DNA of 64,000 nt from NCBI GenBank assembly GCA_036874045.1, contig JAZBRI010000008.1, positions 5,719,001 through 5,783,000 of the forward strand, written 5' to 3'. The notes under the pieces are model-generated. The model saw only the letters and a list, made by a program, of their open reading frames with translations, ran no database searches and was not told the DNA's origin. The translations under genes and the position numbers were made by a program. Source of the stretch: Cymodocea nodosa. Taxonomy: Eukaryota > Streptophyta > Magnoliopsida > Alismatales > Cymodoceaceae. Of the stretch, positions 3,410 to 43,123 are shown piece after piece (position 1 is the first letter of the stretch; each line of letters starts with the position of its first letter).

Positions 3410-3429
3410 AAATTTAGTCTTTTAATGAT

Positions 3430-4190
3430 ATAATCAAAGAACCTAAGTTAGTTTTATTATCTTATTCAATAGATTTAACTCCTACGTGAGATCAATCTAA
3501 TGCATGCCTCTGGTGGGCATTGATCTATGCGATCAGAACAACTTTCCATTTGCATGATAGAGTGAAGTCTTCCCGATAAAAGTTTCGTACCTGAACTTCA
3601 TTAAATCTCATAAATCTTATCAGATGCGTAGACTTAGCATAATCTTAGTAGGGTAATTCAACCCCTTGTATAAAACCTGACACTATCTAGACTATACAAT
3701 CTCATGATTGGAACACCTTGTCAACATTCTATTAAAATGTTCAAAGTATTTCTAAAATAGTTCTTCAGATGCTTGCTCAATATTTTTAATAACATTCTAG
3801 GCTTGGATGACAAGATGCAAAGGATAAAATTTTTTAATAAACAAGAGGCAAAATTTCGCCTAAATTCGAATATACTAAAGAGGTAATATGAACATCTAAC
3901 ATTTAGCATCATTCTTAAGTGTCAAACGAATAAAATGTAACTTGATAACATCTAATAGCATATTAAGGATGTGAATCATGTTTCATACAACTTTAAAGTC
4001 ATGTAAGAACAAATATGCACTCTCATTGTCAAGACCATAAAATTTGGACAATTATCTTATATAATTGGAATGCAGTTCAAATTTTTGTCCAGGAGGTAAC
4101 ATAAAGCATGATGACTAATCAAGTTGAATCAAATAACAAATTTCTTGTAAAAGGTGCAATTGCTGGTCAACCATCACTACACTCTTGTTG
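3430..4190 (-). pseudogene. Gypsy3 gag region (fossil)
   Basis: The minus strand shows a clear match to the Athila-type gag of Gypsy1. Recognisable blocks are QEICYL, LPPGQKFELHSNYI, FYGLDNESAYLFLHDF and LLDVIKLHFIRLTLKNDAK (about 4145-3915), followed by weaker similarity to about 3430. The same blocks occur in the same order in Gypsy1 (40990-41240) and Gypsy2 (27500-27200). Gag proteins of this family build the virus-like particle in the cytoplasm. The copy is much decayed and is described as a fossil only. Confidence 0.75.
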
Positions 4191-4519
4191 GCTTGACTTT
4201 CCTCCCTAGCAAGTTTATTAGTTTCATCTCTAGATCAAACACACACTAATCAATTGAGAATGAAAATATTATGCAATAAAAAACAAAGGAACATAGGTTA
4301 AAATGTACCAGGAGTATGAGTGCAAAATTGAACATGAGGAGTCTTGCCAAACAATGATTAATTAGTAACAAAAATAACTAAAATAACAATAAGCACATCA
4401 AATAACTAGAATAAAATAATGAAAGAAGACTATAAAAAACAAATGAAGACTAAATATAAGTAATGAGCTATACAGATAACACAATGGCCCACAACTCAAG
4501 AATATAAAGGATTTGCTAA

Positions 4520-6260
4520 TTCAATATCCTCATTTAGTCTATCCTTCCTAAGAAATAAAAATAGTTTTAACTTATGACTATTGACCTTAATGACTTCCTT
4601 ATTCTTAGGATTCTTTATTTCCATAGCGCCATGGAGAAATACTCTTTAAACCACATAAGGTATGGTCTATCTTAATCTAAATTTCCCAAGAAAGAGATGC
4701 AATCTCAAATTGTATAATAAAACTTGCTTCCCTACAAACAATTCCTTCCTAATAATTCTATTGTTGTGAAATATTTTCACTTTCTCTTTTGCAATTCTAG
4801 AGTTGTCATAGGCCTCTTGTCAAATTTCTTCCAATTTTGATCATTATAATTTCCTTTTCTTTCCTACCACTTCCAAATCCAAGTTGAATCTTTTGATTGC
4901 CCAAAGGGCCTTATGTTCTAACTCAATTGGCAAGTGGCATATTTTCCTAATTATTCTAAAAGGTGACATTCCTAATATAGAGTTGTAAGTTGTTCAATAA
5001 GCTCACAAAGTCTCATCGAATTTCTCTACCCAATCTTTCCTAGATGGTCCAATTATCTTTTCTAATATTTGCTCGATTTGCTTATTTGCATTCTTGACTT
5101 GTTCATTGGTATGTAGGTGATAATGAGTTGTCATTTTATGTGTAACTTTATATTTTTTTATTAATACTTTAAAACCTTTATTACAAAAATGAATTCCTTT
5201 ATTACTCGTAATGATACAAGGAATACCAAATCAAGCAAAGATATTAGACTTAATAAAATTAAGAACAATTTTTTAGAATTAGATACTACCACCTTGCCAA
5301 AACTCTAAGGTGACAATAAAAGCTCCTTAACTCCTCTTAAAGGGTCAACAACACCAAGTCCATAAGTTTGAGTGTGACCTTGAATATCTAGTCCCCAACT
5401 TTCAATCATGCTCCATTGTCATGATAAAGGGTGAGGTACTTCCTTTAGTGCGGGCAACTTAGTTGGGACATGCAAGATGCCAATGTGTAATGAGCACCCA
5501 ACAATCCCCTCTAGCATGCATACACATAAATGTGCTCGTTAGGACTCAAACTCATGACCTTTGGCTTTAATGCCATTTGTTAGGATCAAATATTACCACC
5601 TTGTTAAAACCCCAAGGTGATAACAAAGACTCTTCAAATCCTCTTAAAGGGTTAGTAACACCAAGTCTATGAGTTTGAGTGTGACCTTAGGCATTTAATC
5701 CTTTGCTTTTGATCATCCTCCTCTATCACGATAAAACGTGAGAAACTTCCATTAGCATGGGTAGCTTATTGGGACATGCAAGGTGCCAAAATACGTGTTA
5801 GGCACTCCACACAATCTTTGAATCACATGTGCGAGTGAGAATAGCTTCAATCTACTTTGAGACATAATCTATTACTGATAGAATATACAAAGATCCTCTA
5901 GAATTAGAGAAAGATCCTATAAAATCTATTTCCCACACATCAAACAATTTAACCTCAATAATAGGTGTCAATGACATCATGCTCTTTCTTGTCAATCTAC
6001 TTACTTTTTGACACTTAAAATAGTTTTTCACAAAAAATTGTGTCCCTAAATAAAGTTGGTGAAAAGACCACATTGGAGGACTTTAGCAATAATTTTTCTT
6101 GAATTTAAATGACCACCAAAAGGTTGATCATGATAGAAGAAAGGCACACTACTAAACGTAGAATTAGGTTTTAAGGTAAGTAGCTCAAGTGTGGAGTATG
6201 CCATAAGTTTCTCAGGTCCAATCGAAAGCTTATCAACTATAACTATAAGTCTCCAATAGG
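4520..6260 (-). pseudogene. Gypsy3 integrase region (fossil)
   Basis: Recognisable on the minus strand are FYHDQPFGGHLNS and VLQCGLF from the zinc-binding part (about 6160-6055), SMMSLTPIIEVKLFDVWEID at the start of the core (about 5990-5930), FCNKGF (about 5180), and GMSPFRI and LPIELEHKALWAI from the C-terminal half (about 4990-4890). The order and wording match the Athila-like integrases of Gypsy1 (39480-40370) and Gypsy2. The SINE-like insert at 5270-5810 lies in the core. Fossil copy with many breaks. Confidence 0.8.
5270..5810 (-). mobile_element. SINE-like dimer with 5-bp target duplication
   Basis: A 541-bp insert in the Gypsy3 integrase, flanked by acaat at 5265-5269 and 5811-5815. 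On the minus strand it ends in a short A-run just before the duplication, as retroposed elements do. It consists of two related units, about 5581-5810 and 5270-5580. Both carry the blocks gcatgtccca, ggtcacactcaaact, gacttggtgtt, accctttaagagga and aaggtggta in the same order. The second unit has a head resembling a tRNA-type promoter: an A-box-like tggcattaaagcc (about 5562-5576) and a B-box-like gagtttgagtcc (about 5541-5552). The first unit seems truncated at its 5' end. The likely identity is a tRNA-derived SINE that inserted as a dimer. The family is not recognised, so a non-SINE repeat remains possible. Confidence 0.55.
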
Positions 6261-9132: not shown

Positions 9133-11051
9133 TGTAAAGTCAAGAATTGTGCATTTTATTATATGTTAAAGCATGCATTTTTTGGATTTCAAGTGCATAC
9201 TATATGATTTTTATATTGAATTACATGAAAGTTATATTTTTAGGCAATGCATGTTTTTATGAATTAAAAATGAAATAATGCACAAATCTACCTTTAATGG
9301 AATTAATGTTAAGTTTAATAGCCCATGTGTAGATAGTTATTTAGAATAAATTACATGGAACACAATTTTATTGCACGCATGTTCTTTACTTATCAATTTC
9401 ACTTGTGCTTTCCAAAGATTTAGTATTAAGATATAAAATTTATGCATGATAAGAATATAAAGTTATACTTTCATCATCTTAATGAAATATTGTTATAGAT
9501 GCACCTATAATATTTGTCTTAATTATTCATGATATAACTCTACATGTGATTGAATGGGTTTAACTTTTGTATGAGTTGTTATTGATGAAAATAGGTGACA
9601 TCAAGGGATTATAAGAGGGTTAAATCTCAATCCTTGGATGGTGTATTAAAGGTGAAAGAGGCTGAGATTTATCTTAGCCATTGGATCTATCTTGGAAGAT
9701 CAAAGGACACCAAGATTAATAGGAGGAGCAAACCCCACGTCTAAGGATATCTTCTCAATTGCTGTCCATTCCAACTGATGTTTCTCTTCTCCAAGGACTC
9801 CTCTCCTCGTGGCTGAAGGTGGACACTCAAGGGTGTTGTTCCCCCTCTCAAACCAACATCATCTCCTTCTTTCTCCTCTTGATTCATGTCCTAAAAGGGT
9901 TTCCAAGGGTGGGAGCTTTGGCTGCCTTGGTGGAGGAAGCTTGGATGGTAAGGTGGAGTGGTGCTTGACGTGTGGATTTGGGTGGTTCCAAGGAGTATTT
10001 TCAGAAGCAAAAGAGGGGCTTGAAACATCTGTTTTGACATCCAAAGAAAGTGGAAGGAGGTTGAGTTCTCTTGTTCTTGCAACCATGGAAGGCCCATGCT
10101 CTAGGTGACGTTCCAAGGGATGAGATCTTGGGAAAACATGGCTGAAGAGTGTGGTTTCATCCAACCACAGATTCACTACTGAGGAAGAGGTGTTCTTCAA
10201 GTTATGAATGAGTTTTGAGAGAGATCCCTATGCATAATTTGTGTTCATGTTGTGTATGTATGCATAGGTATGTTGTTTCATGTTTTTATGTTATGTTTGT
10301 ATACATTTGTGTTGATTGAGTGTTATTGCATTGAATTTCAGTATAGTTTTCATATGGATAGTTAATTCCAAATGTTATCTTGATGTGGATTAAAGTTTAA
10401 CGTAGTTTTCATCTTGTTTGTATGTGAATATCATGACTGTAAATAGGGTATTTGATGAAATGTTTGCTTATGTAAAGGAGAACCGTGTACAGAGTTTGGG
10501 TATTTTTGTTTATTTCGATTCTCTCAACTCAGGTATCGATTCTGAATGATTTTTGATACAATCTCATACATGTTCGAGTCTACTTACCAATGGTTTTGAT
10601 TTCGTAATTTTTGGAGATCATTTGAATGGTATTTTCGATTTAAGTGTTGACAGGTGCATCTGACATAGACGCAAGTTCTGGGCAGAGTTTTTGAGCATCT
10701 TTGATCATCAATTTCTTAGAGTATAAATTGCATTTTTATGATCTATAAAATGGGTTTTTGAAATAACTTGCATTGAGATTTCGTTTCACATCATTTCATA
10801 AAGATTTTAGGGAGATATGAATTTTCTTGTAAAGTCACGCAATCTATGTTTTGATCTTCGTGTGCTGCACATTTGTGTTTGATTCGTCACCAATAACTCT
10901 TTGGTTTGCTTTAGATCTCGAAATTGTGCTAGATTTTTAGATCTTTTAAAACCCTTTCCAAATCATATTTTTACATGATTTTTCAGTAAGTATTTTGGAA
11001 AGGAATGATTTCTAAAAGTGGATGCAATTTTTGTAATTTTAAGAGTTTTAA

Positions 11052-11180
11052 GGGGGGTTTGTGCTACAAGAAACATTGGGAAACCATAGGTAAAGAAACA
11101 TTGGGAAAATGTTTCTTGTATTTGTGCATAATAGAAATCTTGGGAAATCTTTTCCCATGATTTCCCAAGATGTTGTAAAA
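11052..11180 (+). repeat. Harbinger left terminal and subterminal repeats
   Basis: The terminal ggggggtttgtg is followed by several copies of gaaacattgggaaa and related words at 11069-11105, and by inverted forms (tttcccatgatttcccaag) to about 11171. The right end has matching words. Such clustered short repeats near the ends are typical transposase-binding regions; here that is inference. Confidence 0.7.
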
Positions 11181-11206
11181 ATTTGTCATCCGTTGCCGAG
11201 GTCAAG

Positions 11207-11700
11207 AGGTCCGAAACAAAGGGAAAAACCTTGTTTGATGAACCGTGCCTCAATCCCGATCGATGTTGACGATGCAGGCGTTGTCGATGCCCTCACGATC
11301 TAACTTCCCTTCGCTTCTATCGCGTTGTCGTAGGCGTTAGTGCCTTCCTCCTTCCGTTAGCTTCAACTCGCGATAGCGATTTCTTCCACCTTCCCTTCGC
11401 ACGTGTTGTCGACTTGCGATCGAAGCACACTCGCCTTCCTCCAGGTCCGAAACAAGGGGAAAAAGCTCTGAAGATTACCGCGCGTCAATCTCGACCAACA
11501 TTAAGGTAGGCATTGTCGACGCCCTCACGAAGCCCCCTTCCGATCTTGCAGATTCTAGAAACTGTGAGTTGATGACGTAGGCGTTTTCAACACCCTCACA
11601 ATTAAACTTCCCTTCGCTTCCGTCGCGTTGTCGCAGGTGTCGGTGCCTTCCTCCTTCCATCGGCTTCAGCTCGCGATAGCGATTTCCTCTTCCATTTGTT
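11207..11700 (+). repeat. GC-rich imperfect tandem duplication in Harbinger
   Basis: Two diverged copies, starting at aggtccgaaacaa (11207 and 11443). They share blocks such as gatgccctcacg / gacgccctcacg, cttcccttcgcttc, gcgttgtcg, gtgccttcctccttcc and ctcgcgatagcgattt. The second copy has an extra block of about 60 bases. The G+C and CpG content is far above the surrounding DNA. It lies upstream of both transposon genes and could be a duplicated leader or promoter region, or a captured host fragment. No protein was recognised. Confidence 0.7.
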
Positions 11701-11707
11701 GTCCTGC

Positions 11708-11818
11708 TCTACACTTGGCGTTGTTTGTTGTTTCTCTTCAAAATATTTGCAGTCTCGTTATCTTATTAGAGCAATGCTCCTTGCATTTGAACTGAGAAGT
11801 CTTAATGTTATGCATTTT
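11708..11818 (+). repeat. Direct repeat copy 1 (111 bp)
   Basis: Begins tctacacttggcgttg and ends at cttaatgttatgcatttt. It is nearly identical to 12531-12641, with about three differences seen by eye. Confidence 0.85.
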
Positions 11819-12530
11819 GATTTGTATTTTATAATAGGAGTATAGATAATCATCTACTGAACAATACTTATACATTAACGTAGAAAAATTAGTACAATAA
11901 TAGGAACAAATCTATAACAATAATTATATAGGTAATATGGATAGATTTGTAAAGATAACATAGGTAAAAATGAAAGAAGAAAAGAATAAATTAAACCATA
12001 TCATGCCATACTAGGTTGAGGTTAAAAAAGGTGAAAGCACTGTAAAATGCGAAAGTGTAAACCATGAAACTAATTCCATTTTTATAGAAGGGCTTTGAAT
12101 TTTGAATAGATGTACAAATCCATCTTCTTAAGTGTGGCTTTAAGTCACATGTTTGCATTGATTAATTAATGTTGTAAATTGCCTTGTATGAATGTGATTT
12201 TTGTCTATGGGTGCATTTTGTCTTGTACCGAATTTCTACTATAAAGAGTGTTGATGTGGCTGTTCTGTTATTCAATAGTATTTGTTTGGTTAAGATATTT
12301 CTTTACACTTATTGTTCTATCTTTGACACAAGATTACATGAATGTCTTTTTCATGACACACACATTAGATCTTTTTTTGTTACCATCAACCAATTATATC
12401 TAATATGTTCCTTTTGAATATAGTATACAATATAAATCTTTTATTGCCTGAGGGTGTGAAGAACTTTTCTTATATATGAATTTTTATTCAGCTTACAGAC
12501 AATTATTTAAATAGGTGAATATTGTCTTTC

Positions 12531-12641
12531 TCTACACTTGGCATTGTTTGTTGTTTCTCTTCAAAATATTTGCAGTCTCGTTATCTTATTAGAGCAATGC
12601 TCCTTGCATTTGAATTAAGAAGTCTTAATGTTATGCATTTT
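12531..12641 (+). repeat. Direct repeat copy 2 (111 bp)
   Basis: The second copy of the 11708-11818 repeat, separated from it by 712 bp of AT-rich DNA without a recognised feature. The pair could result from an internal duplication in the transposon. Confidence 0.85.
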
Positions 12642-13388
12642 TTATTCCACATTAAATAATTACCTCATTTGATGAATTTCCTCTTCCATTTGGTTTATTT
12701 AGGGTTTCTACAATTCTCTTGAAACCCACCTATTCTTTTTTGTTCTTGTCTATAGCTTGCTTGTTACTTGTGTAAGGCTACTTTTTCCAGATTTTAATCT
12801 TTCTTATTTGATGAATCTTAAGAATCTTAATCAACCTATCATTTCTCCACTTGTAACTATGAGCTTGAGCATGTCTTGCTAGGCAACTATATTTTTTCTG
12901 GAATAGAAATTAAATGTTGAGATTATCTTGGTGGAGACTATGAATATGACTTTCTTATTTGTTATGCGTTAGGTGTCCTCAAGTGTTAGTATTTTATGGT
13001 GAATGTAAATTAAATGAATGATATATAAGAGAAAACAATAATTTATTGTTCATTTGGAGTGTTTGAAGTCTAGGTCTTGTGTTTTTTTGGAAATTCACAT
13101 GATGTGCCTATTATATTCCGCATACTGCATGCATGTGCAATGTTTTACTTGAAGTTATTTCATTGGATTGCACTGATTTCCCTTTTTGGTATTTGTGTCA
13201 TTGTTGTTTTGTTCTATTGTTTCATTGATTTGATGATTCATTGTTTCATTGATTCATTGTTATATTATTGTGAATGCGTATAATCTTAATTTGTAAGAAA
13301 ATTATGTATACGATTGAATACATTTGCAAAAGGAAAAATTCAATTCTCATACTTGTTCTAGCTTTGTTAATGAACATAATATAGGAAT
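12642..13388. other. Harbinger non-coding interval
   Basis: AT-rich DNA between the repeats and the Myb-like gene. A run of degenerate ttgtttcattgatt repeats lies at about 13203-13262. It presumably holds the promoter of the DNA-binding gene; no element could be singled out. Confidence 0.4.
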
Positions 13389-14314
13389 ATGACTTCTGAG
13401 AGAAAGAAGTACGTGAACTGGAGCATTAGATAAAATGAAATTTTTTTAGGTATCTTAGCATCAGAAATAAGAGAGGGAAATGCAAAAGCACATGATGGGA
13501 AGATCAGAGCTGAGACATGGCAAAAGTGATTGCTGAATACAATGATAAAACTAATGCCAATGTTGAGAAAAAATATGTAGAAAGTAGAATGAAAACATGG
13601 AGGACAATGTATAAGAATTATACAAAAATTTTCAAACAAAGTGGATGGGGGTGGGACTACATCCGTGGGCATACTGATATTCCTAAAGAAATTTGGGATG
13701 AATTTGTGTAGGTATGTTATTTTATTTGACAGTATTTATGTATTTCTTTGAACTTTCATATATTAAGTAATTTCTTCATTTATTTCTTATAGCAACATCC
13801 AGATTGTAAAGCATGCTGGGGAAAGTCATGTATAATATATGATGATCTGTATACAGTGTTTGATGGAAATATGGCAATTGGAGTGAATAGTCGCGTTCCC
13901 CATGATTTCACAATACCACAACATGTGGAACCCCAAGAACCTATGGACACCTTTCTTGTATTCAGTACTCAAGTTCCTCCGATACTTCCTAATAGTAGAG
14001 AGGATGAACATTCACTAAGCCCTTATACAAGTGAAAATATCGGTAGAAAGTCAAGGAAAAGAGCCCGACCACATGCTAAATCATCTCATTCAATTGCTAT
14101 ATCAATGAATCAATTGAGTAAAAGTATGGCGAAGATTGCAGAAAATGATGACAAGTGGCAAAAATCAAAACTCAGGAGAGAAATTGATGAAGTTATTCCC
14201 CAAATATGGGATCTTGAGGGTCTTACAGAAGTAGAGAAAATATTGTCCTTGGATTTGCTAGAACAGCCTGTGAAAAGAACTATCTTTTTAGGGTTACCTT
14301 CTAATGCTGTATGA
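13389..14314 (+). pseudogene. Harbinger Myb/SANT-like DNA-binding protein, decayed
   Basis: This is the accessory protein that, in PIF/Harbinger elements, binds the transposon ends and helps bring the transposase to the nucleus. The first exon (13389-13711) begins MTSERKKYVNWS and carries the Myb/SANT-like block FLGILASEIREGNA, then VEKKYVESRMKTWRTMY and KQSGWGWDYIRGH. A probable intron is 13712-13792 (gtatgt...ttatag). The second exon (13793-14314) begins QHPDCKACWGKSCIIYDDLY, has a basic stretch RKSRKRARPH and ends FLGLPSNAV. There is an in-frame stop after WSIR, a frame change at about 13525, and a stop at the first exon's edge. It is therefore a pseudogene, although its second exon is open. 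Spacing and order relative to the transposase match the superfamily. Confidence 0.8.
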
Positions 14315-14776
14315 GTTACATGGATAAGACATCATATTTAGAGAATGTGAACTACTATTTGTTATATGCACCTCTGTTTGAACATTTTATTGTGATGTTA
14401 AGGGTGGATATAGTTATATCCCTTTTTTATTGTGATGTAATAATTTGTAGTTGGACTTTGTTGTTGTTAGTACGATGTCTGTGAGTTATGTTGTTATTGA
14501 AAAAACATTTTATTGTGATGTTGTAATAATTTGTAGTTGGACTTTGTTGTTGTTATTATGATGTTTGTGAATTATGTTGTTATTGAAAGAACATTTTATT
14601 GTCATATTCAAACATTATTGTTATTATTGAGTATTTACCTTCTTTGCTTTATTGACAACACTATTATCAATTGTGCACTCTAATTTTATTCTTAGGTGCT
14701 TCCCTTTGGTTAAATTTTGATATATTTGACATATTTATTTTTTTACATATAGTTTTCCTCTACATGAACAACTACA
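14315..14776. other. Spacer between the two Harbinger genes
   Basis: AT-rich DNA containing a repeated block: attgtgatgt...taatttgtagttggactttgttgttgtta occurs at about 14429-14469 and again at about 14513-14557. No coding potential was seen. Confidence 0.6.
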
Positions 14777-16176
14777 ATGAAAGTTCCCAACGACGATTAT
14801 AAAGGCAAAGACAAAGGCAAATATGCAACATAATTACTCAAGCGTGTGGAGGAGTTGCACATAATATTACACATATTAGAAGGAATTCTATTGAACGAAT
14901 ATATAGTAAGGAGGGAGAATGATATACTAGAACATTATTAGATTCATCAATACCTCACCAATCATATAATTGTTGAAAAATATATCGCATGAGTCAAAAT
15001 GTTTTTATGGAATTTTGTGAGTTGCTTAAAATAGAAAGAGTTATACAAGATAGTTGAGGTATAAGTGTTGAAGAGAAATTAGCAATTTTTCTTGTTATAG
15101 TTGGTCAGAACCAATGATATGGAGTAACTATTGAGTATTTTCGGAGATCTGCTTGGGTGATTAGCACATATTTCAATGAAGTTGTCAATGCTATAATCAG
15201 ATTACATGATATACTTATAGCAAAACCTTCATCATCAACGCCAAACTGAATTCGTAATGATCCAAATGTCTACCCATATTTTAAGGTAAAATGTGAATTA
15301 TATTATTATATTCTTCTATTTTATTGAATGTATTTTGCATAGATGTTTAACAATACATTTTTTACATGTTCTTAATATAGGATTGCATTAGCGCTATCGA
15401 TGGTACACATGTCAATGCTACAATTTATGAACAAGAAACTGCTAAATACAGGAATAGGAAAGGAGAATTAACACAAAATGTATTTGCAGTTTGTAATTTT
15501 GACATGGAAATCACGTATGTACTTGCTGGTTGGGAAGGATCAACTGCAAATGCTAGGACTTTACAAGACGTAACTTCTTGACTGCATGGGCTTGAAGTAC
15601 CACCTGGTATGACAACACTATTGCCATTCAGATTATTTGTTTATATAAATGTAAATAATAGAAAGTGCTAAATGTTATGTATATTGTGCAGGTAAGTATT
15701 ATCTAGTAGATGTAGGATTCCCAAATCGTCTAGAATTTATTTCTCCATTTCGAGGTGTACAATATCATTTATCAGAATATGATTGAAATCGAGTTCCAAG
15801 TAACGCGGTAGAGAATTTCAATTACAGACATTTTCAGTTGAGAAATGTTATAGAACATACATTTGGAGTGATCAAGCATCGGTTTGCAATTTTACGAGGT
15901 TACATGCCATATCCATTTGAAACACAAGTTAAAATTGTTTTAACATGTTTTCTTGTCCATAATTTCATTAGAAGAGCAGATCAAGAAGACTTATTATAAG
16001 ATCTAGTAGATGAATTGCGTGAAGAAAATGTTGTATTAAATGAAGAATTTGTTAACAATGTTAAAGAAGATAATGTACATTATTCTGTTAATTTGAGCAT
16101 GGAACGAAGGAAAGTAGTAGGTGATGTAATGCGTGAAAGAATTATGTATTCCATGTGGAAGAGGGATAATATGTAA
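14777..16176 (+). pseudogene. PIF/Harbinger DDE transposase, decayed
   Basis: The transposase that would cut and join the element ends in the nucleus. The best region starts at MSQNVFMEFCELL (about 14993), followed by EYFRRSAWVISTYF. The DDE_Tnp_4-type catalytic core shows the first Asp in DCISAIDGTH (about 15381-15410), the second Asp in KYYLVDVGFPN (about 15694), and Glu in RNVIEHTFGVIKHRF (about 15842-15886). The end is MWKRDNM before the stop at about 16176. Two short introns fit gt...ag: 15286-15380 and 15607-15691. At least six in-frame stops lie in the readable part. Five are TGA, several where a Trp codon would be expected, which is the pattern produced by G-to-A change at methylated sites. 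The N-terminal part (14777-14990) is the most decayed. Confidence 0.85.
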
Positions 16177-17960: not shown

Positions 17961-17970
17961 CACACCTACA

Positions 17971-30840: not shown

Positions 30841-30899
30841 TAGCATAGAGTCGCTTTGATCTTTCTGTTCTAAGTTCTAAATGATCTACCGGATAATGC

Positions 30900-31399: not shown

Positions 31400-32600
31400 T
31401 AAGCTCGAGTAGTCCTCTACTCTAACTTCTTCTATAATTTCAAAAGAACTTTTTGGTATTTTCAGAATAGGTCTAAGTCTTTGTCCATTTACTTTAAAGA
31501 TATTCTAATTTTTAGGATTTTCAATCTCAATAGCTCCATAAGGATAAATATTTCAAACTATGTAAGGTCCTACCCATCTAGATCCTAATTTTCCTAGATG
31601 GTTATGGAGTCTAGCTATGTAAAGATATACTTCTTGTCTTATTTCAAAGCTTTTTGGAATAATTTTCCTATCATGCTAGAATTTCATTTTCTCTTTTTCT
31701 CTTACAGTCTTTGAATAAGCTTTATTTCTAAATTCTTCTAATTCAATTAATTGCATTTTACTATTTTCAGCAGCTTTATTTAAATTAGTGTTCAGAGTTT
31801 TTAATGCCCAATAAGCTTTATGTTCTATTTCAGCTGGTAAATGACAACTTTTTCCATATACTAGTCTAAAAGGTGACATACCTAAGCTTGTCTTATAAGC
31901 AGTTCTATAAGCCCAAAGTGCATCTACCAATCTATTAGCCCAATCTGTTCTAGTAGGATTTACTACTTTTTCTAAAATTAACTTAATTTGTTTGTTAGTA
32001 CTTTCTACTTGTCCACTTGTTTGCTTATCTAGCACGACACCAGAAAACTTGTTTGCGGATGATATGATGTTGCAATTTTGTGGTTTACTCCATATTTCTT
32101 CATTAAGGCTTCAAAACTTCTATTACAGAAATGAGTTTCTCTATCACTGATAATAACTTTAGGTATTCCAAATCCGACAAATATATTGCTTCTTATAAAT
32201 TGTCTTACCACTTTGTTGTCATTAGTTTTTGTAAGAATAGCTTCTATCCATTTAGATACATAATCCACCCCCAACAATATGTAATTAAACTGATTAGACA
32301 TAGGAAATGGACCCATAAAATCTATTCCCCACACATCAAAGATTTCAACCTCAACAATAGGATTAAGAGGCATCATATTCCTCTTTGATATTCTTCCTAT
32401 TTGTTGACATCTTAAACAACTTAAGCAATATTTATGAGCATCTTTGAATAGTGTTGGCCAATAAAACCCACATTACAGAATTTTTGCAGTAGCTTTCCCT
32501 GAGCCAAAATGCCCTCCACAATCTTGGTCATGATAGAAAGACAATATGCTCTAATATTCAGTTTTTGAAACACACCTCCTTAAAACCAGATCAGGACATT
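31400..32600 (-). pseudogene. Gypsy2 integrase region (fossil)
   Basis: Blocks in order: SILSFYHDQDCGGHFGSGKA (about 32545), CLRCQQIGRISKRNMMPLNP, IVEVEIFDVWGIDFMGPF with core Asp, YVSKWIEAI, FGIPKVIISDRETHFCNRSF with the second core Asp, and the C-terminal [18 protein letters not shown] and [13 protein letters not shown] (to about 31690). It would insert the cDNA into host DNA. Fossil copy. Confidence 0.88.
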
Positions 32601-32799
32601 TATTAAATAAGTATGGGTCTTCCTAATAGTAATATTTTATTCTTGAGAAAAACAATTTCTTATCCTGTCTATTCCAATCCTTAGGTGTTAAACTAGTAAC
32701 TAAGTAATTAACTATGCCTGCATACCAAGGTATTGTGTTGATGGTCATTAATTGTTCATCAGGAAAATTATCCTTAATTTCTATATTTGATTTTTCTAT

Positions 32800-34060
32800 T
32801 TGTAATCTTGATAAATGATCTGCTAATACATTCTCTTAACCTTTTTTATCTTTAATTTCTAGATCAAATTCTTGTAATAATAATATCCATCGGATCAATC
32901 TAGGCTTAGTCTCTTTTTTTGCTATTAGATGTTTTAAAGCTGCATGATCCGTGTATACTATTACTTTAGCTCCAATCAGATATGATCTAAACTTTTCTAA
33001 GGCAAACACAACAGCTAATAGTTCTTTTTCAGTAGTTGTGTAATTAACTTAAGCATCATTTAAGGTTTTGCTTGCATAATGAATCACTCTAGGAGATTTT
33101 TCTATCTTTTGTCCCAACACTGCTCCTATAGCAAAATCAGATGCATCACACATTAATTCAAATGGATGGCTCCAATCAGGTGCTTGAATTATAGGAGTTG
33201 AAATTAAGCTAGTTTTAAGTCTGAAAAATGCTTCCTTGCAATTTTTATCAAAGTTGAATGGGACATTTTTTAATTGATTAGTTAAAGGTCTAGCTATTTT
33301 GCTAAAGTCTTTAATAAATCTTCTATAAAAACCAGCATGTCCTAGAAATGATCTAATATCTTTTACTGATTTAGGTTTTGGTAGATTAGAAATTACTTCT
33401 ATTTTAGCTTTATCTACTTCCAACCCTTTCTTAGAAACAACATGCCCTAAGACTATTCCTTGTTTAACCATAAAGTGACATTTTTCCCAATTTAAAACCA
33501 GATTATTTTTCACACAGCGTTTTAATATTTGGTCTAAATTGCTTAAACAAACTTCATATGAGTTGCCATATATAGTAAAATCATCCATAAATATTTCTAA
33601 GAAATCTTTAGTCATTCTAGTAAATATGCCCTGCATACACCTTTGAAAGGTAGCTGGTGCATTGCATAATCCGAATGGCATTCTCTTAAAAGCATAAGTT
33701 CCATTAGGACAGGTGAAAGTTGTTTTCTCTTGATCCTCTAATGCTACTGGAATTTGATTATAACCTGAATACCCGTCTAGGAAACAAAAATATTCTTGCC
33801 TTGCTAATCTTTCCAGCATTTGATCTATAAAAGGTAAGGGAAAATGATCTTTCCTAGTCACAGCATTCAGCTTTCTATAGTCTATACATACTCTCCAGCC
33901 AGATTGAATTCTAGTAGATATCAAGTCTTGACTTTCATTCCTAATAATTGTTAATCCTAATTTCTTGGGAACTACATGGATTGAGCTAACCCACGAGCTA
34001 TCAGAAATCGGATAAATTATTTCATTATCTAACCATTTCACCATTTCCTTCCTTACTACT
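32800..34060 (-). pseudogene. Gypsy2 reverse transcriptase and RNase H region (fossil)
   Basis: RT blocks: IDYRKLNAVTRKDHFPLPFI, FLDGYSGYNQIPV, MPFGLCNAPATFQRCM, the catalytic FMDDF (about 33600-33585), GHAGFYRRFIKDFSKIARPL. RNase H blocks: LMCDASDFAIGAVLGQ (about 33150) and, further left, [10 protein letters not shown] (about 32950) and ADHLSRL. The wording is that of the Athila lineage. Together these would copy the RNA into DNA. Fossil copy. Confidence 0.9.
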
Positions 34061-34107
34061 TCTTTAAGGTTAGATCATAATTATGCTAAATTAATTTATT
34101 CTAGATC

Positions 34108-34720
34108 TCATTCTATATTTATGCTTTCACTTTCTAAAGTTTCAGAATTGATTTGCCTATTTAATTCTTCTTGAATCACATCATCTAACATATCTCCTTC
34201 ATCTTCTAAAAAGTCTTTGGTATGTAAGGACATTTCTAACTCCTCAAACGTTTCTAGTTTGAAAATATTTAATTGAGTATCCTCATTACCATATGCCAAC
34301 TTCATTACTCCAGTTTTACAATTTATAACAGCCCTTGATGTTACTAAAAATGGCCTTCTCAAAATTAAAGATGTATCACTATTTTTATGCTTAATTTGTT
34401 GGGAATCCAAAATTACAATATCAATAGGATATATAAAGTTTTTGATTTTAATTAAGACATCCTCTATTTTTCCTCTAGGGTATCTTATACTTCTATCAGC
34501 TAATTGAATAACCTTATTAGTAGGAGTTAAGCCTTCTAATCCTAAGGATTCAAATATATCACTTGGCATAACATTTATACTTGCACCTAAGTCTATTAAG
34601 GTTCTTTCTAAAATGGTATTTTCTATGGTGCATGATATAATAGGGATTCAAGGATCTGATAACTTTTTAGGAATTTGTGGCAGAAATAGGGAACTACTTT
34701 GCTAAACTAAAAAGACCTTT
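34108..34720 (-). pseudogene. Gypsy2 protease region (fossil)
   Basis: The active-site region RTLIDLGASINVMPSDIF (about 34610-34555), then NFIYPIDIVILDSQ, LILRRPFLVTSRAVINCKTG and an acidic tail. It aligns with the Gypsy1 protease (18724-19140). Confidence 0.85.
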
Positions 34721-35752
34721 CTAAGAACTTTCGCTCTCTTTTCTTAGTACATCAATCCTTCAGAAATTTAGCACAAGGTGACATTTTCTGCAATAGATCT
34801 AACAAAGGAATGTTAACATGTACTTTTTCAAAAATTTCTTTGATTTTTTCTTGGTTTTCAAGTATTGTTTGTTGTAATCTTTCAGGATAGGGTGCTAAAG
34901 ATTTTGATTTAAAAGATTCTTTTTCTTTCATTTGATTTGCTAGATCATTTTTAGCCTCATTAGCAGATTCAAATTGTTCTTCATTGATTCTAGATTTTTA
35001 GCTATTACATTTTCATTATCATTTTGATTTTTACTCTTATCCACCTTCATATTATTTTTATTTTGAGTTCTTGATGGTATATCAGTTCTAGATCTTAATG
35101 TTACACATACATCTTCCAGATTTTCGTTACTCTCATGATGTTTTTGTATATCATTTTCATGATTATGATCTTCAATTGTTTTTAGTTTTAAAGTGCATTC
35201 TTTAAATTCTATTGCATTAATATTTTCTTTTGACTACATATTTTGCAAATTATATAGATCTATAACATTATAATTTCCATTGTCCTGTTGCATAACTTGT
35301 ATTTTCATTGTATATTCATCCAATGCTTTTAGTTTTCTTTCCAGATCATCTAATCTCATTGCATTCAATTTTTGATCAATTTTCATTATGATTTTTTCAG
35401 TTTCGTAAATTATATCCATTTTAGGTTTTGAATATGCTTTCTTATAGTTTAATTGGTTGACTTCTTGTTGCTGACACATAAAGTATTCTAGTTTGTCCAA
35501 GTTTTGCTTTATATTACGCTCTAGTCTACCATACCTATCCTAAACTTCAGTGTTTCTCAACATATTACACATTCTATGCTGACCATCAATTGGGTAAACT
35601 ATAGGATTCTCATACTCGGCTCTATTATATTGAGGATAATTCATTTGTTGTTCATAGGATCTAACCATCTGCAAACGTCTCAGTTTCAAACAGTCAGAAA
35701 TGTCGTGACCTTCAGAATTGCAGAATTCACATATGCTAACTATAGGTTTCAA
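34721..35752 (-). pseudogene. Gypsy2 CCHC block and linker (fossil)
   Basis: A zinc knuckle CEFCNSEGHDISDC (35731-35690) is followed by a Tyr/Asn/Gln-rich stretch and a coiled-coil-like segment (ERKLKALDEYTMKIQVMQQ, about 35340-35280), then a Lys/Asn-rich linker to the protease. It is the counterpart of 17971-18573 in Gypsy1. The major gag domain is not present here. Confidence 0.65.
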
Positions 35753-35854
35753 AAATCTTTGAGCATAAGATATGCCATATTCTCAATTACAGAAGAAAAC
35801 ATACAACACTTTGGCTATTAAAACAAAACAGCTCTAATAGTTGCTTATATTAAT

Positions 35855-35872
35855 TCCCCGTCAACGGCGCCA
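35855..35872 (-). promoter_or_regulatory. Gypsy2 primer-binding site (tRNA-Asp type)
   Basis: On the minus strand this reads tggcgccgttgacgggga, one base away from the Athila/Tat-type site. It lies seven bases inside the 5' LTR edge at 35880. Confidence 0.92.
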
Positions 35873-35879: not shown

Positions 35880-37920
35880 TGTATGCTTACCTAGCACGAC
35901 ACTAGAAAAATTGTTTGGATCTCCAGCAACGCACCAGAAAAACTTTGATTTGTTAACTTCTGTTTTTTACTTAGTTAATTTATCTTTATGCCTATTCCTT
36001 TTTAGAAGTAAACAAAACACCTTTCACACAAATTAGATATTAATTCGAATTTGTATTTTAATTGTAAGTGCACAGTGTCTATTGTATTAGTGTGTAAGTA
36101 CAGGTCGATCCCACAGGGAATTGCTTAAGAATTGAGAACTGTTCCATTTTTAACAATCAAATTTATATATTCAATAAGCTCTCTGTTGAGTTACAGTTAT
36201 CTTAACAAACAAAGTTCGTTGAATTATGGCTAACTCAACGGACTAGCCTCGTGGACTTATGTTAACTCCACGAGCTTGCATTTCCTATTTAATACTGCTA
36301 TTTACACAGGAATTCGGCCAACCATTGGGCGGTTCCACAAATTGTAAATAACATCAATTAAGCTCTTTAATGTTAGTAAACATTGGATTTATCATTAGGC
36401 AATACTAGCATTCAGATAATTCAAACAGTAACCATTAAAATCTTTAAGTCTTTTGAACGAACCAATTTCAGTAAACTATAAAACTAAAACAAACATAAAA
36501 CAATCACAATACTGACAAAGATAACATTAATCACGATATAACACAAACAATACAACACTCAAATACTAAGTATAAACATAGATAAGTTGTTTTTGGTATT
36601 TTTGTTTTGATATGAGCATGGAAATGGGAGAAAGGTGAAATGTAAAGTAATCTCAATCAATAGTAAATACTTCCGTCACTACATGTGATGCGATTACACC
36701 ACTAAAAATTAAACCACTTACAATTCTGTCTCCTCTCCCTATAGAATCGCGAGTCCAGAATTGCAAGATGATCTCATCTTCAGCATACAGGCATCAACCC
36801 GAAACCAAGGCTAGAAGCTTTACGATCTCCTGAAATATGAGTCGGCGCTTGGTGAAAATGGCTTCCCTTCCTGCGACGTGATCACTCCTCATAGTGGTTG
36901 TCAAGCATTGTGTTTGGCTCAGAATCGACCCAACATCAGGAAAGTATCCTCACAGACCTCCGATGGTTGGTGATTATGGTGGTGGTGATAATGGTTGGTG
37001 TGGTACTTCAGAGAATTACCGACATTGATCCTCCTCTACACACACTGGCCATACCCATCGATCGCACACACTTTACTTCTTTTCTTTTATATTTCTTTAG
37101 TGGTAATTGCTTCTGCTTGAATGGTCGGATGGATTTCCTTCATTCATATCAACGACGATGATTTGTTCTCCTTGCGCAATACGTGTAATTGTGGTTTTTT
37201 TCCTTCCAACTATCCTATTTCTGCAACCGCTACAATGGCATATTAAAAAATAAATAGTCTGTGGAGTTATAGATAACTCAACAGACTTTCTTCGTTGATT
37301 TAACTATAAAACACGTGCATAAATTTAACTATCCGATGCTCAGGTGCATTTCGGATACTTACAGATTTAACTATCTGATGCTCAGATGAATTTCGAATAG
37401 TTACAAATAACTCACTGATATATAACTTAAGTCAATCTACTAGATCACGACATGTTTCATCAGCAATTTTATAATAAAAGGAACATTTCAAAGAGTTACT
37501 AGTCTAACTATCCGATGCCCAAATGCATTTCGGATAGTTATAGATAACTCATCGAAAGTTCACTTAAGTCATGCATTATAGTTTCAACACGTGTACTTCA
37601 GGAAATAATAAAATATTCTTTTAAAATATAACTGTTCGGTAATTTAAACATAACTTTTCAGAATATATTCGGTATGTTAAACATAACTATCCAAAATAAC
37701 AGAAAATTTGGATACTTAAGAATTTCACAGCCTGCAATTTATCGACAGTTCAGAAATATACTAAATTAACATTAATTTCACGAAATTAAGCAGATTCTTT
37801 AATTAGAGCTTATAACAGTGCAATTATAACATAATGGCTTAATTCTCATATGATAAGCTAAATATTATGCAATTAATCATCATTTAACCGTTAATATTAT
37901 GCACTTTTTCATTCTAAACA
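35880..37920 (-). repeat. Gypsy2 5' LTR
   Basis: 2041 bp, uninterrupted. It gives the reference structure for the interrupted 3' LTR and for the two solo LTRs of the same family. It contains the cgttgagtta set (about 36180-36260), a GC-richer stretch (about 36730-37050) and the ccgaaa/ttcgga module (about 37320-37720). Confidence 0.92.
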
Positions 37921-37925
37921 ATATG

Positions 37926-39300
37926 TCAATATAGGATTTACTTAGAGAGCGATAGTACTCCATCTAGAATTCCATAGAGACAACTGAACCTGAACATTAA
38001 GGACGTTGTAAAGAAAGAAATCATCAAGTGGTTGGACCATGGCATAATTTATCCTATCTCCGATAGTTCTTAGGTTAGCTCTATACAGGTAGTCCCAAAG
38101 AAGTCAGGTATCATTGTAGTTGAAAACGGTAGCCATGAGCTCGTTCCCACGAGAGTGCAAGTAAGATGACAAGTATGTATAGACTATAGAAAGCTTAACA
38201 CCGCCACTAGGAAAGACTACTTTCCTTTACCTTTTATAGATCAAATGTTAGAGAAACTAGCGGGACAAGAGTATTACTGTTTCTTAGATGGTTACTCTAG
38301 CTACAATTAAATCCCCGTCACACCTTGTGATCAGGATAAGACCACATTCACTTGTCCATTTGGTACTTTTGCATTCCAGCACATGCCTTTTGGTTTATGT
38401 AATGCTCCAGCAACATTTCAAAGGTGCATGATTGGTATGTTTTCGAATGTAGTGGATAATTTTTTAGAGATTTTTATGGATGACTTCTCTATAATTGGAC
38501 CTTCTTTTGATTCATGCCTTCAGAATCTAGAATTAGTGTTAAAAAGGTTTATAGAGAAGAAATTAGTTTTAAGTTGGGAAAAATGTCACTTCATGGTTCA
38601 GCAGGGTATTGTGTTGGGTCATGTAGTATCTAAGAATGAGTTGGAAGTTAATAGGGCAAAAGTAGATCTCATAGCCAACCTACCAATCCCTAAATCTATA
38701 AAAGATATAAGAGCATTCTTGGGCCATGCAGGCTTTTATAGACGGTTTATTAAGGATTTTAGTAAAATTGCCTGTCCATTAATACTATTATTATCAAAGG
38801 ACACATCATTTGAATTTTCAAAAGATTGTCATGATGCCTTTGAGGAGCTTAAGAGAGTCCTAGTCTCTGCACCTATTGTGCACCCTTTGATTTGGTCTCA
38901 CCCATTCGAGTTGAGGTGTGATGCCTCAGACTATGCAGTAGAGGTAGTTCTAGGACAAAGGATAGATAACTTACCTAGGGTGATTTACTATACAACAAAA
39001 ACCTTAAACCCGACCCAAGTAAACTACACTGTTATAGAGAAGGAATTCTTAGCCATAGTGTTTGCCCCATTCTTATCTTCTAGGGTAAAAAACTATCATT
39101 TACACCGATCACTTAGCCATCAAGTTCTTGTTAACTAAGCAAGACGCAAAAGCTAGGCTAGTTAGGTGGATCCTCCTACTTCAAGAATTTGATATAGAAA
39201 TATGAGATAAGAAAGGTAGTGAAAACATTGTGGCTGACCATTTGTCTTGTCTTGTCACACCCTAAGAGGGAGTACCTATTGGTGATTCATTCCCTGATCA
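37926..39300 (+). pseudogene. Gypsy1 reverse transcriptase and RNase H region (fossil)
   Basis: Resumes after the atatg duplication. Blocks: IIKWLDHGIIYPISDSS, CIDYRKLNTATRKDYFPLPF, FLDGYSSYN, MPFGLCNAPATFQRCM (38383), FMDDF (about 38475), GHAGFYRRFIKDFSKIACPL, then RNase H LRCDASDYAVEVVLGQ (about 38912) and NYTVIEKEFLAIVFA. The Athila-like wording is very close to Gypsy2. Fossil copy. Confidence 0.9.
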
Positions 39301-39359
39301 ACAGTTGATGGCGGTAACTCCAGTCCCTTGGTTTGCTAACATTGTAAACTACTTGGTGA

Positions 39360-40563
39360 CAAAGTGAGTGCCTAAAAATTGGTCAGGCCAACAAATTAAG
39401 AGATTTATAGCCAAGGCAAGAGAATACCATTGGGATGATCCATATCTCTTCAAATCTTGTCAAGACTTGATTATAAGAAGATGCATCCTTGACTTCGAAG
39501 TTCATAGTGTGCTATCTTTTTGTCATGACCAACCCGTAGGTGGTCATCTCAATCCTCTTAAGACGGCCACAAAGGTTTTGCAATGTGGTTTCTTCTAGCC
39601 CATGCTGCATAAGGATGCATATTTTTTTGTAAAGAACTATGCTGAATGTCAAAAGGTGGGCAGACTTACAAGGAGAAACATGATGCTGCTCACTCCTATT
39701 ATTGAGGTAGAGATATTTGATGTTTGGGGTATTGACTTCATGAGACTATTCCCTAACTTTAGAGGTTTCACATACATTCTCTTGGTCATTGATTATGTGT
39801 CAAAATGGGTGGAGGCCATACCCACTCGCACTTGTGACTTAAGAGTCGTAGTAAATTTTATTAAGAGTCACATCTTTGTTAGGTTTGGCATTCCACAAGC
39901 TATTTTAAGTGATAGGGGCACCCACTTTTGTAACAGGAGTTTTGAAGCATTAATGAAAAGATATGGTGTAATGCATAAAATGAGTACCCCTAATCACCCA
40001 CAAACAAATGGGCAAGTGGAAAATGCCAATAAATAGATTAAGCAAATATTAGAAAAGATAGTAGGAAAGTCAACAAAAGACTAGGCTGAAAAATTAGATG
40101 AGGCATTATGGGCTTACCGTACAACATATAAGTCAATTTTGAAACTGTCTCCATATAGAGTAGTGTATGGAAAAGCATGTCACCTACCGGTGGCACTAGA
40201 ACATAAGGCCTTATGGGCAATAAAGGGGCTTAATTTAGATCTAAAAGCTGCTGGTAGTAAAAGATCTTTCCAACTAGTTGAGCTTGAAGAAATAAGGCGC
40301 GAGGCATATGAGAATTCGAGTATTGCTAAGGAGCAAAACAAGGTATTTCATGATAGCAAACTTTTACGCTAGGATTTTGAAATAGGGCAGCAAGTATTAT
40401 TATACAATTCAAGATTGCATCTATTTCCCAGAAAACTCAGATCTAGGTGGACTAGACCTTTTGTGGTTAAAAGTATATTCCCGCATGGAGCAGTAGAAAT
40501 AGAAGATCCTAAGAGTGGGAGCTTAACTAAGGTCAATGGCCATCATCTTAAACCATTTCTATA
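39360..40563 (+). pseudogene. Gypsy1 integrase region (fossil)
   Basis: Blocks: FCHDQPVGGHLNP and VLQCGFF (zinc-binding part, about 39519-39595), CQKVGRLTRRNMM, VEIFDVWGIDFM with core Asp (about 39708), YVSKWVEAIPTRTCD, FGIPQAILSDRGTHFCN with second core Asp (about 39887), NHPQTNGQVENANK, and C-terminal LSPYRVVYGKACHLPVALEH and [10 protein letters not shown] (to about 40561). Gag begins shortly downstream. Confidence 0.9.
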
Positions 40564-40736
40564 GTAGGGTTTCGTGGGTCGTGGATCTAGTATGGGTTTA
40601 AGCCCTGCTATTTACATGTAAATGTCTAGTAGTTTTATTTCTTTTCTTTTTGTTTCTGTTATGATTGTTGTAATATTTATTTAATCCCTATGTGTTGTTT
40701 TATTATTTGAATTATGTACTTAATTTTGTATAAAAC

Positions 40737-41860
40737 TTGCTCCTCATCTTGTTTGATGATGCAGGTATTGGATATGTAGATCTTCCCAATGTGAGTCTTT
40801 CTTTTAGATTACTAGTACTTTTGCTCGTACTTTTGAGTGGCTGTTTTATTTTTTTTATGCAAACCTTTGGTTGGGTGAGAGATAGTACATTGAGACTAGT
40901 TAGAGGGGGGATTGGAAATGAGCGTGATGAACTAGATAGTGTAGAACCCATGGTGAACCAAGAATTACAATCACTAGAGGATATCTGTTACCTTAGGGTT
41001 CACAACCACCCTTCTTGTCTATACTTACCACCCATAGATGGGCAAAAATTTGAACTTCATATGAACTATGTCAATCAATTGCCCTAGTACCATGGATTAG
41101 ACAAGGAGGACGCATATGTCTTTTTAAACGACTTTAATGATGTGTGTAACATGGTCAGCTTGCTGAATGTGCCAATAGATGCCATCAAGCTTAGATTTGT
41201 GCCCTTTGCTCTTCGTGACGGTGCAAAACTTTAGTTGCACACCTTGCCAGCCGAGCCCATCCATACCTGGACTGACTTTGTGTAGTATTCCTAAAGAAAT
41301 TTCACCCTTTGCACAAAACAATCCAAGCTAAAAATGCAATCTTAGGTATCAACCAACAACTCCATGAACCCTTTTGGAAGTATTTTGATCGTTTCAACAA
41401 GATGTTGGCTAAATGCCCTAATCATGGATTGTCGCAATCTAAGCAATGTCAAGCATTGTATGAAGGACTTGATTATAACACAAAGCTGATGTTGGAGTCC
41501 ATGTGTCCTAGACATTTCATGCACTTGAATGAGAGTAGAGTGTGGGAGGTATTGGTTGATCTAGCTGAAAGAACCATAGAGATGGAGACTTCCATAGACA
41601 AGATGTATGATAGATCACCAGCTAGGGGGATGCATTCTATAGACCCTATGATTGGTATGGAGGCAAGGATGTCCTCCATGTTCAAGAAGATGGAAGATCT
41701 CATCATCTCACAACAAAAAGGAAAAAACCTTGTTATTGGAGTTCATTGTATTGCATGTGGAATGCAGGGTCATGTTATTGAGGATTGTCTAGTAGTTCAA
41801 GGCCAGGATGTAGAATAAGTGGATGCTATAGGTGTGGGACAACAAATGTTCCAACCTTCT
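40737..41860 (+). pseudogene. Gypsy1 gag region, placed after integrase (fossil)
   Basis: Blocks: LEDICYLRVHNHPSCLYLPP, GQKFELHMNYVNQLP (about 40975-41085), DAYVFLNDFNDVCNM, IDAIKLRFVPFALRDG (to about 41220), EPFWKYFDRFNKMLAKCPNH, CQALYEGLDYNTKLMLESMC (to about 41505), and a CCHC zinc knuckle CIACGMQGHVIEDC (41747-41788). This is the Retrotrans_gag-type capsid region of Athila-like elements. A pyrimidine-rich stretch ending gatgcag lies just upstream (about 40738-40764) and could act as a splice acceptor for a gag message; that is inference. Fossil copy. Confidence 0.88.
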
Positions 41861-43092
41861 TCCCATTATACCCTGGGATGGCAAAGCCATCCCAATTTTT
41901 CGAGAAGACAACAAGGATTACCATCGCCCATGACAAAACATCAATTGGCTGAAGTACCTGCATTATAAGACCGGATGACAATTTTGGAAAAGAGATTTAC
42001 TGAGATTGAAAAAGAGATTTAGTCAATGTTATTGCTAAGTGGACAAACAATGTCGATTCTCACGAATCACAATTAGTCCATAAAGAACATGGAAGCTTAA
42101 TTGGAAAGGTTGAATGCCCAACATGGAGGGTGAGCATAGGGGGAACTTCCGAGTAACACTATTCCCAACCCTCGTATGACCAATGTGCATGCTGCGTAGG
42201 GGGAGATTCGAGGGTCTGATCCCTTATCATCGTCTTAGTGAGTTGTGAGGCTTGGTTTATAATAAAAAAAAAAAAAGAGAAGAAAAATAAAAAAATTATG
42301 GTGTTTAAAAAAAGAAAGAAAGAAGGAACAAAACAAAAACATCATTTGGGTAGAATGGGGGTGTGAAGTCACTTGGAAAGTGAGAGTGAAGTGGATGTCA
42401 ATAAAAACTCCTAAGTGATGGTGTGTAATGACATATTAGTGTCTAATCCCTTGTTCACTAGTCATAGACTAACAACTATGACAGGAAGGGAGGGGACCCA
42501 CCTATTTATTTTTATTCAGCTTTGCATGCTTGCACTTTGGTTTATTTCTCTTTGGTGTGAAGTGAGGGTGTGAATCCTTTTGTGTAAGGCAGATGGTTCT
42601 CTTGAACGGGTAACTCCCTATTCACTATCTAAGGCAAGTTTATTCAATCTAAGGAACAAGTGAGGGAATGATGTGAGGTTAAGCCACCACCATATGCCCA
42701 AAGATCTTAATACGGTAATGAATCAAATAGTCTTTCATTTGGTTGTTAGATCACTTCTTTACCTCTTTTACCTTTGATTCTCTTTTGTGTTTTGTTTTCT
42801 TATGTGTTTTATGTATTGATTTTTCATAGTTTTATTTTGTTTTCTTTCTTTTTATTTATTTTATTTTGATTTGGACTTTGTAGGTATGTCCTCTACAAAC
42901 CCTTCAGAGACACAACTCTGCCTCTTTGGTGACTTAAAGGTTTAACGGTTTGCTGCATATGCTAAATGCAGTCGTGCTCCCTACGAAAGTGGCCTAGGTT
43001 AGATTTGTTTATTTTGTTGCTTTTGCTTTATTTTTCATTAGGAGTGTTTCTCATGTGGGCTATTTACTTCTTTATAGATCTAGTTCTTTACT
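41861..43092 (+). other. Gypsy1 3' non-coding region
   Basis: Remains of a gag tail (to about 42200), an A-rich simple stretch (about 42265-42340), then a region without coding signal up to the polypurine tract. Confidence 0.55.
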
Positions 43093-43123
43093 AAGGGACT
43101 AGCAAAGGCTAGGTATGGGGGTG
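43093..43123 (+). promoter_or_regulatory. Gypsy1 polypurine tract
   Basis: aagggactagcaaaggctag then gtatgggggtg immediately before the 3' LTR; it is closely similar to the Gypsy2 tract. It proves that gag lies inside the element. Confidence 0.88.

Follow-up and report, generated by a model that had tools for sequence, protein, structure and literature searches.

The question raised by this locus is how a retrotransposon manages with its capsid gene in last place. The window, meaning the whole stretch of 64,000 nucleotides analysed here (Cymodocea nodosa, contig JAZBRI010000008.1, positions 5,719,001 to 5,783,000 of the forward strand), contains long terminal repeat (LTR) retrotransposons of the Ty3/gypsy type, and an initial annotation had claimed that three Athila-like elements in it carry gag after integrase (INT). 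Such an order departs from the layout usual in retroviruses and LTR retrotransposons and leaves the production of the capsid protein to be explained; gag-first is commonly rationalized by a single transcript that yields much Gag and little Gag-Pol, which are co-packaged. The Metaviridae profile of the International Committee on Taxonomy of Viruses (ICTV) places gag before pol, and a plant survey of 8453 Ty3/gypsy sequences gives the order as GAG, protease (PROT, here PR), reverse transcriptase (RT), RNase H (RH) and INT, with gag not reliably identified in 159 (Neumann 2019; PMC6317226). All three elements are present in the window, two bounded by LTRs and one an old remnant, each with integrase then gag on one strand. 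It is likely that in an Athila-type Ty3/gypsy lineage gag moved from the front of pol to the interval between integrase and the polypurine tract (PPT), in one event or very few, and that the lineage then expanded into several families of many copies.

Gag behind integrase in the window and in the genome

Copies outside the window come from the same genome, of 374.6 Mb, and are given as numbered loci (L), grouped by sequence into families A (the outer window element, L023-L041), B (L042-L052), C (L010, L015, L016), D (L009, L011-L014, L018, L020) and E (the inner window element, L017, L019, L021, L022, L056). The outer element, delimited along with the rest by self-comparison, open reading frame (ORF) lists and tblastn of window pieces, lies on the plus strand at 9133-63703 and is host to the nested inner element. 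Its 5' LTR (9133..16847) starts with TGTAAAGTC, ends with CATACA, matches the pieces of the 3' LTR at 94-97% and is broken up by an unrelated insertion at about 11052-16530. A few nucleotides past its end lies a degenerate primer binding site (PBS), AACGCCGTTGCCAAGG (16854..16872), followed by a leader of 1.06 kb. The first part of pol (17914..19600) holds a CCHC motif at 17971-18012, recognized by eye and with an internal stop, and a protease at 18613-19139 that is 56% identical to the inner protease (tblastn) and matches Pfam Asp_protease_2 at 4.7e-4, under the Pfam cut-off. The inner element splits pol at 19600; RT resumes at 37993, and the stop-broken RT and RNase H (37993..39430; Pfam RVT_1 and RT_RNaseH; 67% amino acid identity to the inner RT) lead into an integrase at 39368..40564 (Pfam rve 7e-17), homologous to those of the inner and old copies. 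Behind integrase stands gag (40857..42224; Pfam Retrotrans_gag 3.7e-9), broken by stops and shifts, with a CCHC motif at 41747-41788; its start is taken as the ATG at 40857 and its end is estimated from L028. The PPT at 43112..43123 (GGTATGGGGGTG) is followed by TGTAAAGTCAAG, where the 3' LTR starts at 43124. That LTR lies in pieces (43124-43163, 50987-51708 and 62212-63703) separated by two insertions, and the target duplication, AACAG and AACAA, differs at one of five bases. The span assigned initially, 3410..43123, thus takes in the right elements and ends in the wrong place: position 43123 is the outer PPT and not an element end, because the outer element extends to 63703.

The inner element lies on the minus strand, from 37920 down to 19601, within outer pol and with an exact target duplication, ATATG, on both sides (37921-37925 and 19596-19600). 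It reads LTR, PBS, CCHC, PR, RT, RH, INT, extra ORFs, gag, F-box ORF, PPT, LTR. The 5' LTR (35880..37920; TGTTTAG...GCATACA) is followed after 7 nt by the PBS TGGCGCCGTTGACGGGG (35856..35872), and the pol ATG is only some 80 nt from the PBS, which is the length of the inner leader. The N-terminal part of pol (34111..35778) carries the CCHC motif CEFCNSEGHDISDC and a protease at 34647-34111 (Asp_protease_2 2.9e-5); RT and RNase H follow at 32623..34074 (RVT_1 6e-33, RT_RNaseH 7e-22) and integrase at 31463..32685 (rve 9e-14, and tblastn). After a region of extra ORFs comes gag at 26309..27652, which is broken; its N-terminal part is 88-90% and its C-terminal part 80-82% identical in amino acids to the gags of L017, L019 and L022. 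The broken pieces give no Pfam Retrotrans_gag match and no CCHC was seen within them, and the N-terminal part matches the outer gag at E 7e-31 and the gag of the old copy at 5e-19 by tblastn, in agreement with the homology of gag blocks noted initially. A PPT at 23195-23208 adjoins the 3' LTR (19601..23194), which is 93% identical to the 5' LTR and contains a 1.5 kb insertion at 21006-22542. The old copy, also on the minus strand (6150-3635), is reduced to an integrase remnant at 4556..6150 (46-67% to the outer and inner integrases, tblastn) and, 3' of it, a gag remnant at 3635..4231 (45-54% to the outer and inner gags, tblastn); no other parts of it were found in the window.

A window so heavily nested, with an inner element inside an outer one and further insertions and solo LTRs within the outer 3' LTR, invites the objection that nested or tandem insertion, or an assembly error, merely brought together an integrase and a gag that belong to different elements. 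That gag lies inside both complete elements, as had been claimed, is shown by their PBS, PPT, LTRs and target duplications; the order LTR-PBS-[CCHC-PR-RT-RH-INT]-gag-PPT-LTR holds for each. LTRs of the form TG..CA, a PBS, a PPT and a short target duplication are what is expected of Ty3/gypsy (Metaviridae) elements. Three more LTR-bounded copies, with gag between INT and the 3' LTR, bring the number of bounded elements to five: L054+L015, L055+L016 (bounded by only 565 bp of matched LTR) and L057+L009, with Kimura two-parameter (K2P) distances between LTRs of 0.041, 0.024 and 0.053-0.076, respectively. A hidden boundary between integrase and gag was sought as well. In a comparison with a set of LTRs that took in their own, the spacers of the outer element, family C (L015) and family D (L009) showed no LTR remnant, nor did those of the old copy and family B (L048), for which only the LTRs of other families were used; the best LTR match of any short spacer examined has an E of 0.009, and spacers align within each of families A to D. 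The 3.9 kb between inner integrase and gag does have short palindromic repeats in common with the inner LTR (the best match being 89 nt long, at 76% and E 2.6e-10). These are read as a dispersed motif rather than as a boundary because the intervening ORFs are kept in L019, L021 and L022.

The order also recurs throughout the genome. A search with Pfam Retrotrans_gag, in which the best 150 of 4640 first-look candidates were scored, led to 14 of these 150 places being examined with 10 kb around them; all 14 have an integrase upstream of gag and in the same orientation, with RT visible farther upstream in eight. The outer gag gave at least 151 matches (150 of 4884 candidates scored), and integrase is upstream in 25 of the 30 loci of 3.5 kb examined, one of these being the window's own. 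Combined, and for loci chosen non-randomly by gag similarity, integrase precedes gag on the same strand in 39/44, on many contigs, and PR or RT follows gag in 0/44 (downstream flank covered: 1.5 kb in 30 loci, about 5 kb in 14). Integrase and the gag match are 370-458 nt apart in 35 loci, belonging to families A to D, and 1671 nt apart in L017; integrase is within 2.2 kb in 36 loci, and about 4.1 kb upstream in L019, L021 and L022. The inner and old window copies, L056 and L058 show the order beyond these 44. With LTR bounds, target duplications and this genome-wide recurrence, an artefact of nesting, tandem insertion or assembly is rejected for the lineage and can be considered very improbable.

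Five loci lack an upstream integrase. Other repeats or joins precede gag in L041, L043, L051 and L052; in L037 (C21:4635023 region), RT runs straight into gag, apparently through an internal deletion of the remaining pol. L018 has a CCHC-region match about 4 kb behind gag that presumably belongs to another element. One open-frame match of 1211 aa was considered as a gag-first copy and rejected: the 261 bases upstream of it are integrase, 97-98% identical to family B, and the 301 bases downstream are non-coding-like.

Gag is thus found behind integrase in five families of one genome, and Retrotrans_gag is recognized in one copy each of A (1.4e-17), B (2.3e-19), C (1.6e-22), D (6e-21) and E (L017; 2.2e-21). 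Pol is a separate 5' reading frame with its own ATG and a CCHC-like motif first, and its order, PR-RT-RNase H-integrase, is that of Ty3/gypsy elements; what departs from that type is GAG, which does not stand before PROT. The motif at the start of Pol, C-x2-C-x4-H-x4-C, is seen by eye in A (with an internal stop), C, D and E, and was not seen in B. Within gag, a CCHC motif occurs in A, B and C, called by Pfam weakly and in B only, and is absent from the aligned copies of D (L020) and E (L017). RNase H and integrase matches overlap and leave no room between them, the one place scanned, for the second RNase H that is a Tat/Ogre trait.

Origin of the order

Where such a gag came from is best judged from its relatives. 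A first protein search with a piece of gag gave one relative on a short, uninformative contig, and a PDB sequence search gave two weak matches (E 0.02-0.08). The best database relative, among 12 proteins found, is P0122 (ENA; 666 aa; 62 members), 35% identical over 93% of the query. Its alignment with the gags of A, B and E extends from a W-x-R...R-L start to a PNP motif, shortly after which these gags end; the frame used for D (L020) ends before that, and C was left out of this alignment. The gag is the same, with the N-terminus and the C-terminal PNP motif common to both, but in P0122 gag stands first and runs in frame into protease, as it does, by eye, in P0125, a gag-protease protein of Tanacetum coccineum. 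When P0122 was compared with the genome, 67 of 12,199 first-look candidates were scored, and none of these 67 matches reaches PR: each breaks off at residue 417-443 of the 666, most have open frames of 451-469 aa, and 17 contain no internal stop; all 59 scored matches of P0125 (of 9,945) fall within residues 22-380, its gag. Copies with gag before protease, which would speak against an inherited pol-gag order, are accordingly absent from both scored sets (0/67 and 0/59), and the Athila trait of gag and protease in one frame does not appear. Since the matches are confined to gag, and gag and PR are fused in the relatives, gag-first is probably the ancestral state and gag moved later.

The RTs are 66-74% identical to the 120 database RTs listed, several of them from named angiosperms; the window elements and these relatives are of plant type, and viral contigs searched by RT patterns yielded no relatives. 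In an RT tree of 59 rows, consisting of nine RTs of families A, C, D and E and 50 database RTs thinned from 119 of those listed (family B out, no row labelled Athila, and the gag position of the database RTs not known), the nine fall among the database rows as one group with moderate support (74/78), and A, C and D together are supported at 99/95. The order could instead have more than one independent origin, elements having recombined repeatedly for instance, and recombination among distantly related Athila elements has been reported (PMC2410132). The moderate support leaves some room for this, and family E sits on a long branch with extra ORFs between INT and gag. Multiple origins are nevertheless unlikely: the gags of A, B, D and E align from the common W-x-R...R-L start, the spacing between integrase and gag is alike in the 35 measured loci of A to D, and the nine RTs require one change only on the tree.

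Another alternative concerns the identity of the gene rather than its history. Athila and SIRE elements carry envelope-like or other extra ORFs in the same place, from integrase to PPT (PMC6317226, PMC1142308), and the 3' gag might likewise be an accessory gene, captured from another element, with the replication capsid supplied from elsewhere in cis or trans; the CCHC motif of Pol could then be what is left of a former 5' gag, and the gags of A, B and C have a CCHC motif too. Unlike those extra ORFs, the 3' ORF here is a gag, with Retrotrans_gag scores of 64-80 bits across five copies. A hidden 5' gag is rejected, as tblastn with window pieces found no gag match in the upstream stretches, PBS to pol, of L053, L054, L055 and L057, and leader ORFs of at least 45 aa in L053-L055 reach 62 aa at the longest; no other capsid gene was found in these four stretches. 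The gags of A, B and E cover the P0122 gag from W-x-R...R-L to PNP, and no gag-PR copy that could have been the supplier occurs among the 67 and 59 scored matches.

Selective constraint bears on the same point. Between families, gag of L028 (A) and L045 (B) gives, over 461 codons, a nonsynonymous rate (dN) of 0.253 and a saturated synonymous rate (dS) of 2.9, a ratio of 0.087 by NG86, and L045 against L019 (E) gives 0.207 over 185 codons. Gag looks to be under constraint between two families, which we read as a gag that has been functional since the families parted, both with gag in its 3' place; the low values speak against the accessory gene, which is in our judgement an improbable account. 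Within families, gag dN/dS is 0.5-1.3 (three pairs, two methods), as expected of decaying copies.

A single relocation, or very few, followed by spread remains the preferred reading, and the claim of an inherited architecture rather than an accident is supported by the 44 loci and the RT group. Several points weigh on the other side. The choice of loci by gag similarity means that this lineage is over-represented among them. P0005, whose gag position is not known, joins the moderately supported RT group at 83/93. The P0122 and P0125 queries had no positive control in the genome by which a fused copy would be known to be reported. Between-family dN/dS rests on saturated dS, with three pairs lacking a dS value, and YN00 gave no estimate for 5/5 between-family gag pairs.

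Expression and comparison with known systems

With pol as the 5' reading frame, we infer that the genomic RNA would be the messenger for Pol. Gag would most likely come from a second, spliced subgenomic RNA, the leader being alternatively joined to pol and to gag. Without a fusion to Gag, Pol would have to enter the particle some other way, perhaps by way of RNA held by its N-terminal CCHC motif, a candidate tether. This suggests, tentatively but as a serious possibility, that a lineage present in one genome as several families and many copies has abolished the Gag-Pol fusion. A zinc-knuckle Pol would be the first product of its genomic RNA and Gag the product of a spliced subgenomic one, an inverted counterpart of the foamy-virus strategy.

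Consistent with this proposal, families A to D have an acceptor-like CAG|G (TAG|G in some A copies, CAA|G in some D copies) 84-157 nt upstream of the putative gag ATG, and the first ATG past it is in frame with gag in B and C. One of the best-conserved stretches in family D is close to this site, and further acceptor-like sites, identified by eye, stand ahead of pol in A, C and D. The leaders of these three families are 1053-1181 nt long with 28-34 upstream ATGs, which speaks against translation by simple scanning of an unspliced RNA. Certain observations fit less well. Short other-frame ATGs stand between the acceptor-like site and the gag ATG in A and D, and the first ATG in C falls behind a stretch resembling the N-terminus of other gags. 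No donor common to the families was found, and conservation in the A/B spacer is highest elsewhere than at the acceptor-like site; for these two reasons the splicing step is one that we infer only. No spliced, pol-less copy was recognized among the 44 loci, and Pfam did not call the Pol CCHC motif in the three C copies scanned.

Foamy viruses (Spumaretrovirinae) keep gag first, and the parallel proposed with them, that Pol is made apart from Gag, would be one of strategy with no claim of sequence relation. Their separate Pol is packaged through genomic RNA (PMC7828637). The two systems differ in that pol is spliced there, whereas pol comes first here.

Nearer comparisons lie within the Athila clade (Athila, Calypso, Diaspora, Cyclops), with which the present elements share the order PR-RT-RH-INT, a long leader and a long interval from INT to PPT; their RT similarity to database RTs is at the level given above. 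The PBS of L053 (family C), TGGCGCCGTTGCCGGGGA, a few nucleotides past its LTR, is a candidate tRNA-Asp primer site. The PBS of Diaspora and Calypso is described as complementary to tRNA-Asp (PMC1142308). In Diaspora, gag and pol form one frame of 1892 codons with gag first, according to the same report, whereas gag here has its own frame behind integrase and Pol starts at its own ATG with the CCHC motif. No published account of the order was known initially, and a literature search at the level of titles and abstract openings, with subscription journals mostly outside it, likewise found no Ty3/gypsy element with gag after integrase. A lineage that has multiplied with the reversed order makes it testable which parts of the Gag/Gag-Pol coupling are needed, and annotation built on the order GAG-PROT-RT-RH-INT may wrongly class these elements as broken or mixed.

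Other insertions and reading frames of the window

Rfam at gathering score and a tRNA scan returned nothing for the window. The insertion at 11052-16530 in the outer 5' LTR has a DDE_Tnp_4 match (6e-6) and is PIF/Harbinger-like. The two elements inserted in the outer 3' LTR, at 43164-50986 and 51709-62211, are copia-like by eye, and each has an inner-type solo LTR inside one of its own LTRs (43180-45392 and 52493-54731). By nesting, the inner element is the younger, but its LTRs differ by a K2P of 0.071 (115 transitions, 22 transversions) and those of the outer element by 0.036-0.058; LTR divergence contradicts nesting, and LTR-based dates are therefore unsafe for the window elements.

A palindromic motif, AACTCAACGAA...TTCGTTGAGTT, recurs on the minus strand at 31000-31100, 28000-28200, 26220-26260 and 24600, as well as in the inner LTR. 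The extra ORF region between inner integrase and gag (28620..30860, minus strand) contains ORFs at 30741-30544, 30453-29887 and 29463-29122, which are kept in L019, L021 and L022 at 68-81% amino acid identity; a Pfam scan of two of the three gave nothing above cut-off. The F-box ORF inside the inner element (25345..26121, minus strand; Pfam F-box 7e-11) is found between gag and PPT in L017, L022 and L056 also, and partly in L021, with stops in some copies. Its dN/dS is 0.6-0.7 for the window copy against three others, and in family E it looks like a host gene captured by an LTR retrotransposon.

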